Source of the DNA: Frankia sp. AgB32
GTDB lineage: Bacteria; Actinomycetota; Actinomycetes; Frankiales; Frankiaceae
Direction: 5' to 3'
Length of the DNA: 39,770 nucleotides
Assembly (NCBI RefSeq): GCF_023243045.1
Contig: NZ_JALKFX010000032.1
Location: forward strand, 1 to 39,770
The number at the start of each line of letters is the position of its first letter. Within the stretch, counting starts at the first letter, position 1. This document shows positions 8,330 to 39,770 of this stretch, one piece after another. The notes beneath the pieces were generated by a model. The model was not told where the DNA came from, ran no database searches, and saw only the letters and a list, made by a program, of their open reading frames with translations. Position numbers and translations under genes: made by a program.

Positions 8330-9349
<1,020 letters not shown>

Positions 9350-35716: not shown

Positions 35717-38581
35717 TCAGTGGGCGGCGTCGTCCCAGGTCCGGCCGGAGCCGACGCTGACGTCCAGGGGTACCGACATGGTGTAGGCGGAGGTCATCTC
35801 CGCCCGGACGAGGCGCTCGACGTCCGCGTACTCGCCGGGAGCGATCTCCAGGACGAGCTCGTCGTGTACCTGCAACAGCAGCCGGGAGACGTGACCACCA
35901 GCCCGCAGCGCCCGGTCCACCCCGAGCATTGCAATCTTGATGATGTCGGCGGCCGAGCCCTGGATCGGGGCGTTGAGTGCCATCCGTTCGGCCATCTGCC
36001 GGCGCTGGGAGTTGTCGCTGGTCAGGTCGGGCAGGTAGCGGCGACGCCCGAGAATGGTCTCGGTGTAGCCGTCGCGTCGGGCCTGCTCGACGACCCCGCG
36101 CAGGAAGTCCCGCACCCCGCCGAAACGGGAGAAGTAGGCGTCCATGTGTTCGCGGGCCTCGTCCGGGGCGATGCCGAGCTGCGAGGCGAGCCCGAAGGCA
36201 CTCAGCCCGTAGGCGAGCCCGTAGGACATGGCCTTGATCCGTCGGCGAAGTTCCGGATCGACCTGGCTGACGGGCAGGCCGAACGCCTCCGCCGCGACGA
36301 AGGTGTGCAGGTCCTCGCCGGAGCCGAACGCCTCGATGAGGCCCTCGTCCCCGGACAGATGCGCCATGATCCGCATTTCGATCTGGGAGTAGTCGGCGGT
36401 CAGCAGCGTCTCGTAGCCGGCGCCGACGACGAAGGCCTGGCGGATCTGGCGACCCTCCGCGGTGCGGATCGGGATGTTCTGCAGGTTCGGGTCGGTGGAG
36501 GACAGCCGCCCGGTCGCCGCGATGGTCTGGTTGAACGTGGTGTGGATGCGGCCGGCATCGTCGATCATCGGCAGCAGCGAGTCGACTACGGTCTTGAGCC
36601 GGGCCACGTCGCGGTGCCGCAGCAGCACCGGCAGCAGCGGGTGGTCGGACTGGACCGCGAGCCAGGCCAGCGCGTCGGCGTCAGTGGTGTAACCAGTCTT
36701 GATCTTCTTGGTCTTCGGCAGGCCGAGCTCGTCGAAGAGGATCTGCTGGAGCTGCTTGGGCGAGCCGAGGTTGAACGTCCGCCCGACGATCTCGTGAGCC
36801 TGCGCGGCGACGTCCGCGACCTCGCCGCTGTAGTGCTTCTGCAGCTCGCTCAGATGGTCGTGGTCGGCGCCGATCCCGGCCCGCTCCATTCCGGCGAGCA
36901 CCGTGACCAGCGGAAGTTCCATGTCGCGCAGCAGCATCGCGGCGGAACGCCGTTCGAGGTCCGCGTCCAGCTCGTCGGCGAGTTCGAGGCAGGCACGGGC
37001 GCGCAGCGCGTCGGCATGGGACTCCTCGGCCTCGCCGGAGCCGTCGAGGGTGAGCTGGCCGTTGCCGGCGGGCTCCCCGGCCAGGTCACGGTGGAGGTAG
37101 CGGGCCACCAGGTCGGCCAGGTCGAACGAGCGCTGGCCGGGCAGGGCCAGGTAGGCGGCGAGCGCGGTGTCGCTGGTGACCCCGGCCAGCGGCAGGCCCA
37201 GCTCGGCCAGCGCGAGCATGGAGCCCTTGACGTCGTGCGCGGCCTTCGGCTGGTTCGGGTCGGCGAGCCAGTCACCGAGGGCCGTGAGATCCGCCGGGGT
37301 GAGCCCGGTCGGATCGATCGCGGCCGCGGCGCCGTCGGCCGAGGCCAGGGCCAGGCCGGTCAGCACGCCGGTGCCGCGGCCCCAGCTCCCGCGGGCATGC
37401 AGGCCGGTGCGGCCGACCCCGCGCGCATGCCGCGCCAGCCAGCCAGCCACCCCGTCCGGTTCGAGAATGCTCAGGTCGACCTCGAATCCCTCCTCGACCG
37501 GCGGCGGGGTCGTGGCCAGCGCCGCGTACAGCCGCTCGCGCAGCACGCGGAACTGCAGGGTGTCGAAGAGCTGGTGGACCGCCTCCCGGTCCCACGGGCG
37601 CAGCCGCAGCTCGTCCGGGCCGACCGGCAACGGCACATCCCGCGCGAGCTCGGTCAGCGACCGGTTGCGGATCACCGAGGACAGGTGGGTGCGCAGGGAC
37701 GCGCCGGTCTTCCCGCCGATCTCGTCGACCCGGTCGACCAGCTCGGCGAGGGAACCGAACTGCTGGATCCACTTGGTGGCGGTCTTCTCCCCCACGCCCG
37801 GCACGGAGGGCAGGTTGTCGGATGGGTCCCCGCGCAGCGCCGCGAAATCCGGATACTGCACCGGCGACAGGCCGTACTTGGCCTGGACCTCCTCCGGGGT
37901 GAACCTGGTCATGTCAGAGATGCCCTTGCGGGTCATCAGCACCGTCACCCGGTCGTTGACGAGCTGCAGCGCGTCCCGGTCGCCGGTCACGACCAGGACC
38001 TCCATCCCCGCGGCGGCGCCGGCCGTCGCCAGAGTGGCGATCACGTCGTCGGCCTCGAAGCCGGCGGCGCTCACACCGGGCACCGCGAGGGCGTCGCAGA
38101 CCTGGTGGATGAGGCTGACCTGGCCGGTGAAGTCGGCCGGCGTCTCGGCCCGGCCGGCCTTGTACTCGGCGTACTGGGTGTGACGGAAGGTCGGCGTCGG
38201 CAGGTCCCAGGCGACCGCCACATGGCTCGGCCGCTCGTCCCGCAGGGCGTTGATCAGCATCGAGGTGAAGCCGTAGACGGCGTTCGTGGGCTGCCCTGTG
38301 GACGTCGAGAAGTTCTCCACCGGCAACGCGTAGAACGCCCGGTACGCCAGCGAGTGCCCGTCGAGCAGCAGCAGGCGCGGCACCGCCGGGTCCGGTGCCG
38401 GCCGCGCGGAGCTCGCCGCGGCGGCGGGGCGGCGCGTGGCCCGGGGCCTTGCCGGACGCTTGCCGCCGCCAGGCACGCCGGCCTCGGCGGGATCGGCCTG
38501 CGCGGGAGCTGCCTCGGCGAGGGCGGCCTCGGCGGGGGCGGCCGGCTGGTCGGCGGACGAGTTTGGCGTGGTGACGGACAC
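35717..38581 (-). CDS. polA: DNA polymerase I
   Basis: Fills gaps in excision repair and removes RNA primers. The 954-residue protein has an N-terminal Ala/Pro-rich extension of about 65 residues, the 5' nuclease domain (LLLLDGHSLAYRAFYAL, FEADDVIATLA, VTGDRDALQLV, RGDPSDNLPSVPGVGEKTA), a middle 3'-5' exonuclease fold that lacks the usual carboxylate set and is probably inactive, as in other actinobacteria, and the polymerase domain with DYSQIEMRIMAHLSGD, RRRIKAMSYGLAYG, APIQGSAADIIKIAM and LLQVHDELVLE. The GTG at 38581 has no ribosome binding site; TAAACT ends 6 nt upstream on the minus strand, which points to a leaderless mRNA. Divergent from a thioesterase gene. Confidence 0.97.
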   Translation of the reverse strand: MSVTTPNSSADQPAAPAEAALAEAAPAQADPAEAGVPGGGKRPARPRATRRPAAAASSARPAPDPAVPRLLLLDGHSLAYRAFYALPVENFSTSTGQPTNAVYGFTSMLINALRDERPSHVAVAWDLPTPTFRHTQYAEYKAGRAETPADFTGQVSLIHQVCDALAVPGVSAAGFEADDVIATLATAGAAAGMEVLVVTGDRDALQLVNDRVTVLMTRKGISDMTRFTPEEVQAKYGLSPVQYPDFAALRGDPSDNLPSVPGVGEKTATKWIQQFGSLAELVDRVDEIGGKTGASLRTHLSSVIRNRSLTELARDVPLPVGPDELRLRPWDREAVHQLFDTLQFRVLRERLYAALATTPPPVEEGFEVDLSILEPDGVAGWLARHARGVGRTGLHARGSWGRGTGVLTGLALASADGAAAAIDPTGLTPADLTALGDWLADPNQPKAAHDVKGSMLALAELGLPLAGVTSDTALAAYLALPGQRSFDLADLVARYLHRDLAGEPAGNGQLTLDGSGEAEESHADALRARACLELADELDADLERRSAAMLLRDMELPLVTVLAGMERAGIGADHDHLSELQKHYSGEVADVAAQAHEIVGRTFNLGSPKQLQQILFDELGLPKTKKIKTGYTTDADALAWLAVQSDHPLLPVLLRHRDVARLKTVVDSLLPMIDDAGRIHTTFNQTIAATGRLSSTDPNLQNIPIRTAEGRQIRQAFVVGAGYETLLTADYSQIEMRIMAHLSGDEGLIEAFGSGEDLHTFVAAEAFGLPVSQVDPELRRRIKAMSYGLAYGLSAFGLASQLGIAPDEAREHMDAYFSRFGGVRDFLRGVVEQARRDGYTETILGRRRYLPDLTSDNSQRRQMAERMALNAPIQGSAADIIKIAMLGVDRALRAGGHVSRLLLQVHDELVLEIAPGEYADVERLVRAEMTSAYTMSVPLDVSVGSGRTWDDAAH

Positions 38582-38739: not shown

Positions 38740-39342
38740 ATGACCGCGGCCGACGCGACCCCGGCAGCCGACCTCCCGCCCGCTGCCAGCCGGGCATCCG
38801 ACCAGCGGGCATCCGACCCGCCTGCGAGCGACGAGCCCGCGGCGGACACCCCTGGGGCCGCCGCCGGCACCCCCACCGCGGGGCCCACGGCCGGTGGCGG
38901 CGCGGTCGCGCCGGATCCGGCCGCGGTCCAGCTCGCGGCGCAGGTCAACGCGGCGCGCGGAGAGGCTGAGCGGCGATTGGGTATCCTGCTCACCGAGGCC
39001 AGCGCGGCCCGGTTGGTGGCGACGATGCCGGTCGAGGGCAATCGTCAGCCGTTCGGTCTTCTGCACGGCGGGGTCTCCGTGGTGCTCGCCGAGACGCTGG
39101 GTTCGGTCGGCGCGATGCTCGGTGCGCCGCCCGGCAGCATCGCGGTCGGCATCGAGGTCAGCGCGACCCACCACCGCTCGGCCACCTCCGGCGTCGTCAC
39201 CGGCGTCGCCACCAGGGTTCACGGCGGACGCACCCTGACCACCTACGACATCCGGATCACCGACGAGGCCGGCCGCGCGGTCTGCACCAGCCGGCTGACC
39301 TGCATGATCATCCCTGCGCCACCGGACGCCGAACGCCCATAG
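38740..39342 (+). CDS. Hotdog-fold thioesterase (PaaI family)
   Basis: A 200-residue protein whose residues about 62-195 form a hotdog domain of the PaaI/4-hydroxybenzoyl-CoA thioesterase group: PFGLLHGGVSVVLAETLGSVGA contains the HGG motif (109-111) and a catalytic acid Glu118, and VGIEVSATHHRSATSGVVTGVATRVHGGRTLTTYDIRITDEAGR is the characteristic strand region. It probably hydrolyses acyl- or aryl-CoA in the cytoplasm; the substrate is not deducible. The first 60 residues are Ala/Pro/Asp-rich and probably disordered; I keep the ATG at 38740 because a TAGGCT promoter ends 7 nt before it. A hotdog gene divergent from polA is common in actinobacteria as I recall. Confidence 0.9.
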   Translation: MTAADATPAADLPPAASRASDQRASDPPASDEPAADTPGAAAGTPTAGPTAGGGAVAPDPAAVQLAAQVNAARGEAERRLGILLTEASAARLVATMPVEGNRQPFGLLHGGVSVVLAETLGSVGAMLGAPPGSIAVGIEVSATHHRSATSGVVTGVATRVHGGRTLTTYDIRITDEAGRAVCTSRLTCMIIPAPPDAERP

Positions 39343-39502
39343 AACGGATTCACCCGGCCTCGCGGCACCACACCGCGCCCGATTACGCGAACCGCAATAC
39401 AGCGCACTGATCTACTTGTCTAACGCAATTTTCGATTTACGGTGTCCCGCGCCACCCACGCGAGGGATATCCGAACGGACACACCGGATTCCACCCGCGA
39501 GA
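39343..39502. other. Spacer after the thioesterase gene
   Basis: 160 bp with no gene I can support. A minus-strand open frame that spans it and the RNA candidate (39412-39627) has no domain and no ribosome binding site. The segment has a relatively AT-rich patch near 39410-39445. Confidence 0.5.
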
Positions 39503-39531
39503 TTGACCTGGTGGGACAGGGGGCCTAATCT
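39503..39531 (+). promoter_or_regulatory. Strong sigma-70-type promoter for the RNA candidate
   Basis: TTGACC (39503-39508), a 17-nt spacer and TAATCT (39526-39531) make the best -35/-10 pair in the window. Transcription should begin near 39536-39539. No open reading frame with a ribosome binding site follows before the window ends. Confidence 0.7.
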
Positions 39532-39538
39532 CATCGCC

Positions 39539-39668
39539 GGTGGCACCCGGGATGTGGCGAGTAGACAACGCACGGACGCGGGGAAGGTCCGTACGGCACC
39601 AAAGCCGTTCCCGGGTGCCGCAATCACGAATAGGCCGCCTGGTCGGCCGATCCCAGGATCGGCCGACC
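39539..39668 (+). ncRNA. Candidate structured RNA: sRNA or riboswitch-like leader
   Basis: Directly downstream of a strong promoter. P1 is an 11-bp perfect stem (39542-39552 with 39609-39619). Inside it are a 19-nt single strand, P2 ACGGAC/GTCCGT (39572-39577 with 39587-39592, 9-nt loop) and P3 ACGGC/GCCGT (39593-39597 with 39604-39608, loop ACCAAA). P2, P3 and the closing strand of P1 abut with no linker nucleotides, a compact three-way junction. About 20 nt later a 12-bp hairpin (39641-39652 with 39657-39668) could be a terminator. I do not recognise it as any known RNA family. Without the downstream gene it could be a free small RNA, a leader with attenuator, or an autoregulatory leader of a ribosomal gene such as rpsA. 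Structure was found by eye. Confidence 0.5.
39641..39668 (+). terminator. Hairpin after the RNA candidate
   Basis: GGTCGGCCGATC (39641-39652) and GATCGGCCGACC (39657-39668) pair perfectly around a 4-nt loop. It is followed by GC-rich sequence, not a U-tract. It may end the RNA or act as an attenuator for a gene beyond the window. Confidence 0.6.
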
Positions 39669-39680
39669 GGCCCCGGCCCG

Positions 39681-39770
39681 GGGCCCCCCGCCCCCCCCGC
39701 CCCCCCCCCCCCCCCCCCCCCCCCCCGGCCGGGGGGGGGGGCCGACCCGGCCCCGCCCGCCCCCCGGGCC
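39681..39770. repeat. G/C homopolymer end of the window, probable artefact
   Basis: C runs (27 C at 39700-39726) and an 11-G run (39731-39741) dominate the last 90 bases. As at the start, this looks like failed base calling at a contig end. Nothing here can be annotated. Confidence 0.75.

Follow-up and report, generated by a model that had tools for sequence, protein, structure and literature searches.

A family of small structured RNAs in Actinomycetota, absent from Rfam 15, with a member beside polA in Frankia sp. AgB32

Introduction

To our knowledge, few RNA regulators are common to Actinomycetota apart from the housekeeping RNAs. In E. coli a small RNA gene, spf, lies next to polA; its product, Spot 42, is a gammaproteobacterial base-pairing RNA that uses Hfq. 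The RNA of Frankia sp. AgB32 described here shares this adjacency to polA, which may be a coincidence of place; the two were compared only through Rfam scans.

Ms1 is an actinobacterial RNA that binds core RNA polymerase. It measures ~230 nt in Streptomyces coelicolor, has a HAD hydrolase as its telling neighbour and was not detected in Frankiales, according to the parts of PMC9130861 consulted. Like Ms1/6S, the Frankia RNA is small and structured, and its conservation in Actinobacteria is as much one of genomic position as of sequence. It differs in being ~80 nt long with one internal loop. The length of at least ~160 nt expected of Ms1/6S and the HAD-hydrolase synteny expected of Ms1, both from the same parts of that paper, were not found: the folded unit spans 67-93 nt in 157 copies of the polA-locus kind (type A), and copies lie by polA or lnt. 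An Ms1/6S assignment was therefore rejected.

ANTAR target RNAs form two adjacent hairpins with six-base loops that carry A1 and G4 (PMC8164766, in the parts consulted). The Frankia RNA resembles them in that many genomes have pdtaR, a gene for an ANTAR protein, close to the structured RNA, but it forms one stem with an internal loop of 10/8 nt and a nine-base apical loop, and an ANTAR-target assignment was rejected. The msiK, mraW and Actino-pnp motifs are structured RNAs of Actinobacteria found by comparison, and the parts of PMC2864571 consulted mark all three as cis-regulatory. The Frankia RNA, by contrast, has no same-strand gene after it, and none of these three motifs appeared in Rfam 15 scans of the RNA loci.

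The preliminary description had called the RNA an unrecognised structured RNA and had proposed an Rfam scan. At the end of the window, which is the whole 39,770-nucleotide stretch of DNA analysed, no Rfam 15 family matched the RNA (E up to 10 or 5). With permissive limits there was equally nothing at the RNA in 14 loci (one of which, L127, is a chance match to our own pattern), in 8 loci of which 7 lie outside the class, or in 11 mostly lnt-type loci. For a copy on a phage contig the sole match was MIR1437, which scored 17 bits (E 3.8, chance level) where the gathering score is 168, and no Rfam 15 family was matched at its gathering score. With only chance-level matches in Rfam, and with the covariation and promoter conservation reported below, the description as an unrecognised structured RNA is supported. 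We rate the RNA as a member of a new family of small structured RNA, absent from Rfam 15.

We found no description of it in the open literature, including the parts consulted of PMC9130861, PMC8164766, PMC6429828, PMC2864571, PMC8780764 and PMC3765725; the scope was open text, and a copy of the second kind (type B, below) may stand unnamed in the supplementary lists of Streptomyces small RNAs. One RNA in that literature, scr1434, has a C-rich loop (PMC3765725, in the part consulted).

Results and discussion

The RNA gene and its neighbours in Frankia sp. AgB32

A promoter and an RNA gene of ~80 nt occupy positions 39503-39619, at the 3' end of the window. The features of the locus are as follows.

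35717..38581, minus strand: polA (DNA polymerase I), divergent neighbour; recognised from sequence and tblastn synteny
38740..39342, plus strand: thioesterase-superfamily gene (4HBT), upstream of the RNA on the same strand
39503..39508, plus strand: -35 element TTGACC of the RNA promoter; read in sequence, promoter-like pair common in type A copies
39526..39531, plus strand: -10 element TAATCT (TANNNT), after a 17-nt spacer; read in sequence, promoter survey
39538..39621, plus strand: predicted RNA gene; covariance model match 39542-39619, both ends inferred
39542..39552, plus strand: P1a, 5' arm, GGCACCCGGGA; fold, covariation in A3 and A4
39556..39558, plus strand: P1b, 5' arm, GGC, an extension of P1; RNAalifold, covariation
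39559..39568, plus strand: internal loop, 5' strand, GAGUAGACAA, with conserved core AGUAGANAA; AGTAGA count in model-found copies
39569..39577, plus strand: P2, 5' arm; fold, covariation
39578..39586, plus strand: apical loop, GCGGGGAAG; GGGGAAG kept in type A copies
39587..39595, plus strand: P2, 3' arm; fold, covariation
39596..39603, plus strand: internal loop, 3' strand, GCACCAAA, with conserved core NNCCAAA; alignments, motif count
39604..39606, plus strand: P1b, 3' arm, GCC (drawn as P3 bases in the preliminary description); RNAalifold, P3 count, covariation
39609..39619, plus strand: P1a, 3' arm, UCCCGGGUGCC; fold, covariation in A3 and A4
39641..39668, no strand assigned: 12-bp perfect hairpin (arms 39641-39652/39657-39668) between the convergent RNA and livK-like genes; present in sequence

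Past the poly-C stretch, the same contig continues beyond the window with 10 N and a livK-like gene, which lies on the minus strand and converges on the RNA. Past this gene come a second substrate-binding protein gene and then pdtaR, both also on the minus strand. The names livK-like, ppm1 and pdtaR are our own assignments; Pfam gives Peripla_BP_6, glycosyltransferase 2 and response regulator plus ANTAR, respectively. Positions 39669-39770 are nearly pure C/G, with further G/C runs beyond the 10 N, and the stretch between the RNA and the livK-like gene is probably a poorly assembled scaffold joint.

The preliminary description had left open a small RNA or a riboswitch-like or autoregulatory leader, possibly of rpsA. 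No rpsA was found beyond the window, where the three genes named above lie instead, and an rpsA leader was rejected. No same-strand gene lies directly downstream, and the next gene, livK-like, is on the opposite strand, which speaks against a leader at the Frankia locus. The small RNA option fits, there being promoter sequence of its own and no same-strand gene downstream.

Two other explanations were also rejected. The stems are not part of a dispersed repeat, a possibility that had been raised beforehand: the genome holds one full-length match, the 44 others (E <= 10) are all short, and each of the 63 model-positive genomes of the class has one match. A protein-coding explanation was dropped because close relatives differ by single bases in length and show compensatory changes.

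Fold and covariation

The minimum-energy fold of the single sequence is the structure drawn in the preliminary description, in which an 11-bp P1 enclosed two hairpins, P2 and P3, at a three-way junction. On the plus strand, positions 39536-39680 fold better than all 200 shuffles (z -4.9); the minus strand also folds better than its shuffles (z -4.0). Relatives were collected by blastn of 39480-39690 and 26 were taken up (L009-L034), giving a first alignment of 27 rows with the window included. Alignment A2 (26 rows) omits L032 and was not fitted to a model; A3 (100 polA-type copies) and A4 (100 copies including other types) are alignments fitted to the covariance model.

All three alignments contain an excess of compensatory change. 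In A2, double changes (on both sides of a pair) affect 47 cells (16.5 shuffled), 87.7% of cells are paired (79.9% shuffled) and 14 pairs carry a double change (7.8 shuffled). The corresponding double-changed cells number 525 against 156 in A3 and 659 against 197 in A4. Paired cells in A4 amount to 93.0%, compared with 63.8% in shuffles and 26-47% in slid controls. Counting the pairs that have at least one double change discriminates less, as 140 of 500 shuffles reach the 22 such pairs of A3 and 18 of 500 reach the number in A4. Some 195 of the 2301 cells in A4 are G-U (our own sum), and the plus strand is therefore taken as the RNA.

Compensatory changes had been called for in P1 to P3. P1 (39542-39552/39609-39619) and P2 are both in the sequence and covary, whilst P3 does not. 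Amongst the 26 relatives, P3 (39593-39608, ACGGC-ACCAAA-GCCGU) has no double change in the four of its five pairs counted, the outermost A-U being outside the count, and the paired cells of these four pairs (72.0%) equal the shuffled value (72.2%). RNAalifold assigns its 3' bases to an extension of P1. In this extension, P1b, double changes occur in three of four pairs in A2 and in all four in A3 and A4; the Frankia sp. AgB32 sequence forms three of them. P3 is thus not a conserved helix, and the three-way junction gives way to one long stem with an internal loop. The RNAalifold consensus and our own pair count agree on P1a, P1b, internal loop and P2.

The internal loop, AGUAGANAA / NNCCAAA, lies below P2 and has 10/8 nt in the consensus, with an apical loop of nine bases above. 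It is kept on both sides throughout the family while the stems change freely. AGTAGA occurs in 57 of 60 copies found by the covariance model rather than by pattern; these 60 include L276, L277 and L286, which lack the core, are perhaps degenerate or false, and were retained in A4 and in model R3. Loop conservation counted on pattern-scan stretches would be partly circular, and the 60-copy count rests on model matches. The most conserved bases fall in the 19-nt strand that the preliminary description drew as unpaired, and its suggestion of a binding site there fits the conservation, as far as sequence can tell. A loop kept while stems vary is what would be expected of an RNA that presents a fixed three-dimensional loop to a protein or ligand.

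Distribution and the polA locus

The covariance model from A2 found the RNA in 63 of 393 genomes of the class (E <= 0.01), and at this threshold in 30 of 35 genomes of Frankia's own family. The five family genomes without a match (E <= 0.01) are G007, G010, G015, G018 and G023. In G007, polA sits at a contig end. G010 is a complete genome of the same genus in which livK and polA stand side by side (locus L364) and the RNA is gone; it has no thioesterase match at E <= 1e-10, and an unfiltered model search returned only a 19-bit palindrome. G010 thus lost the RNA together with the thioesterase, and the RNA is therefore dispensable there. Some relatives have kept the RNA but not the thioesterase (L104).

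A pattern scan of named genomes gave at least 116 stretches. Frankia, Parafrankia, Streptosporangium, Actinomadura, Nonomuraea, Microbispora, Microtetraspora and Thermomonospora are among the matches listed, as are unnamed Actinomycetota. A match in Gloeocapsa (L127) was set aside as chance, its flanks looking dnaJ-like in our reading. With a second model and a limit of E <= 0.1, 70 out of 396 genomes in the phylum had a match; most of these lie outside the class and some have two copies. Models R2 and R3 were each built from matches to the preceding model, and the genome searches overlap and miss weak matches, so that these tallies are not frequencies. The family is spread through Actinomycetota, in many families. 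A search of plasmids gave no match for the Frankia sp. AgB32 RNA.

Type A copies keep their place. Divergent polA and/or a same-strand thioesterase lies upstream of 122 of 142 distinct copies; when only the 118 copies whose upstream sequence reaches 1.2 kb or more are considered, the count is 111. The seven exceptions among these 118 are L080, L127 (the chance match), L129, L183, L203, L208 and L222. Downstream the arrangement is looser: the first gene recognised with ten query proteins after the 142 copies is convergent in 95, on the same strand in 29 and absent in 18.

Amongst Frankia relatives, the RNA is flipped relative to its neighbours in L183 and L208, and lies at the 3' side of polA in L193 and L203.

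The exception L222 is a viral contig with an intact type A copy at 9213-9289 (84.0 bits with model R2; fold z -5.9). The copy sits between genes for a DnaB-like helicase and a transglycosylase-like protein, and the contig also carries exonuclease and Gp3-like recombination directionality factor genes. Bacterial copies that share its core have a different P1, yet the phage P1 is self-complementary, suggesting that the copy is maintained as a separate fold and is not a piece of a host site. Phage records gave no match for this copy. Across viral contigs, a wider core pattern found L222 alone again and the type B pattern found none.

Promoter, transcript ends and a stand-alone RNA

The promoter named in the preliminary description, TTGACC-N17-TAATCT, is present and is conserved in sequence among type A copies. 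Of 158 distinct copies, 116 have a promoter-like pair in the 75 nt that precede AGUAGA, compared with 5 of 4538 control windows; the pattern was composed after inspection of the copies and is missing in the other 42. After removal of similar copies the count was 80 of 110, with the end of the -10 hexamer 19-32 nt ahead of AGUAGA in those 80. This promoter-like sequence is at the right distance for a putative independent small RNA gene. Transcription would start at ~39538-39540, i.e. 7-9 nt past the -10 element, and the 3' end is predicted directly after P1.

Signals at the 3' end are less uniform. Among 163 type A copies, 25 have a T-rich tail (at least 5 T in the 8 nt after P1), where two control positions give 1 and 9; under a looser measure the tail count is 55 and the control counts are 13 and 17. 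Over all type A copies the T fraction is 0.22-0.31 in the first six positions after P1 and 0.10-0.24 further on, a weak difference. Frankia sp. AgB32 has no T run after P1, where the 12-bp hairpin comes instead. T-rich tails thus back the stand-alone reading only in part of the copies.

Since the Frankia RNA has promoter sequence of its own and no same-strand gene downstream, it is read as a stand-alone RNA acting in trans. Sequence evidence from the promoter, from downstream genes of either orientation and from the phage copy indicates a stand-alone small RNA. We hold, with slightly more confidence than doubt, that the Frankia copy is an RNA of ~80-85 nt from an Actinomycetota family, made from its own promoter and acting in trans via the internal loop. 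In the proposed mechanism, a sigma-70-type promoter at 39503-39531 would start the RNA, which would be transcribed alone and end just after P1, with P1 and a T-rich tail serving as terminator in part of the copies. It would fold into the long P1a/P1b stem, the two-sided internal loop, P2 and the GGGGAAG apical loop. The stems may only hold the internal loop in shape, and the loop would be offered in trans to a protein partner or ligand, which it putatively binds. The invariant loop would serve as a bait for finding the RNA's partner.

Copies before same-strand genes

Copies in other lineages precede a same-strand gene (lnt/ppm1, DUF4193 or flavin oxidoreductase) by ~0.1-0.8 kb, though not at every locus. 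We term copies before lnt/ppm1 or DUF4193 genes type B. Those before lnt/ppm1, in part with DUF4193 between, are L308-L327, L268-L271 and L287-L290. From the 46 class matches weaker than 1e-8, 22 were drawn blind to context, and all 22 are followed within 1.9 kb by lnt or ppm1 in the same orientation; L268 was counted through its own glycosyltransferase, which served as query, and the 24 left out include 64-nt matches at 26.1 bits. Searching in the other direction, from lnt, found a copy just upstream in 10 of 30 loci (E <= 1). Four of these ten come from genomes with a type A copy as well (G044, G050, G087 and G184). The remaining 20 loci, including all seven of Frankia's own family, have no copy at E <= 1.

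A group of eight copies has dapA divergent upstream in seven or eight cases and flavin amine oxidoreductase downstream in six; L261 is without the latter and L291 ends at a contig edge. In the six (L258-L260, L262, L284 and L285) the RNA is less than 0.2 kb before the oxidoreductase gene, with dapA divergent and a T-rich tail after P1. The T fraction after P1 is 0.50, against 0.17, in the eight dapA copies and 0.37 in the DUF4193 group. DUF4193 was assigned by Pfam in two proteins (one barely above cut-off) and by tblastn in the others.

Further arrangements were seen at individual loci. In L252-L257, L263-L267, L282 and L283 a DUF4193-like acidic gene starts 0.13-0.34 kb from the RNA's middle, and L263-L266 have a Thy1-type (thyX) gene upstream. 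In L275 and L278 the RNA is followed after 44-90 nt by a same-strand gene that we read as a PaaI-like thioesterase, the opposite of the Frankia order. L316 holds a c-di-GMP-II-GAG riboswitch at 1812-1937 that exceeds the Rfam gathering score.

A leader is possible at these loci, where the same-strand gene after the RNA is easier to reconcile with a leader than with action in trans. The family might then be an orphan riboswitch, with the internal loop as a small-molecule aptamer, the P1 hairpin and T-rich tail as a ligand-set attenuator before lnt/ppm1, DUF4193 and flavin-oxidoreductase genes, and the Frankia copy as a detached relative. A single, compact and invariant internal loop would suit an aptamer, and the uniform lnt/ppm1 context of the 22 weak matches, the ten lnt loci with a copy and the T-rich tails of the dapA and DUF4193 groups are all in its favour. 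We nevertheless consider it rather improbable. At the Frankia locus the downstream gene is convergent, as it is in 95 of 124 type A loci where one was recognised, two thirds of the lnt loci show no copy at E <= 1, the downstream genes have no evident metabolite in common, and the phage copy is beside no such gene.

Type B copies could be leaders and still be compatible with a free RNA if both share one partner. A tentative wider reading, which we regard as possible more than probable, is an ancient phylum-wide module. In it, the type B copy at the head of lnt/ppm1-DUF4193 and the free polA-side RNA (type A) would compete for the same protein or ligand, and the phage copy would presumably act on that partner in its host. 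The functions of lnt/ppm1 concern lipoprotein acylation and lipid-linked mannose. Copies before these genes link the RNA to both by place, in an antibiotic-producing group. The family looks like an apparently undescribed regulatory RNA, and its strong covariation, two linked settings, phage copy and spread beyond the class make it a concrete target for study.

The apical loop and the remaining alternatives

The apical loop raises the alternative of a base-pairing small RNA, with GGGGAAG as the seed for CUUCCCC stretches of mRNAs. The motif is present in all 27 rows of the first alignment while the stem beneath it changes. It is however a feature of type A copies and found in only 11 of the 60 model-found copies, 57 of which have AGTAGA; lnt/DUF4193 copies are without it but retain the internal loop. 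The most conserved bases sit in that closed internal loop, and we consider a base-pairing RNA of this kind unlikely.

A decoy for the ANTAR protein PdtaR is less likely still, to the point of being very improbable. Its gene is convergent and 0.1-0.4 kb from the RNA in a number of genomes and more distant in others, but the RNA is without the two-hairpin A1/G4 pattern of ANTAR targets given in the consulted parts of PMC8164766.

That the feature is only a terminator separating convergent genes, or that GC-rich DNA folds this way by chance, is scarcely credible: the RNA does lie between convergent genes, such DNA folds readily and the opposite strand beats its shuffles as well, yet the stems covary, unpaired bases are invariant, promoter sequence is conserved and the family is widespread, all of which contradicts it.

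The 12-bp hairpin past the RNA is present at 39641-39668, as the preliminary description had it, but its sequence is not conserved. Among ten genus relatives, only L009 forms a perfect hairpin there, with a different sequence, and the other nine fold more weakly. It is perhaps a two-way terminator between the convergent genes.
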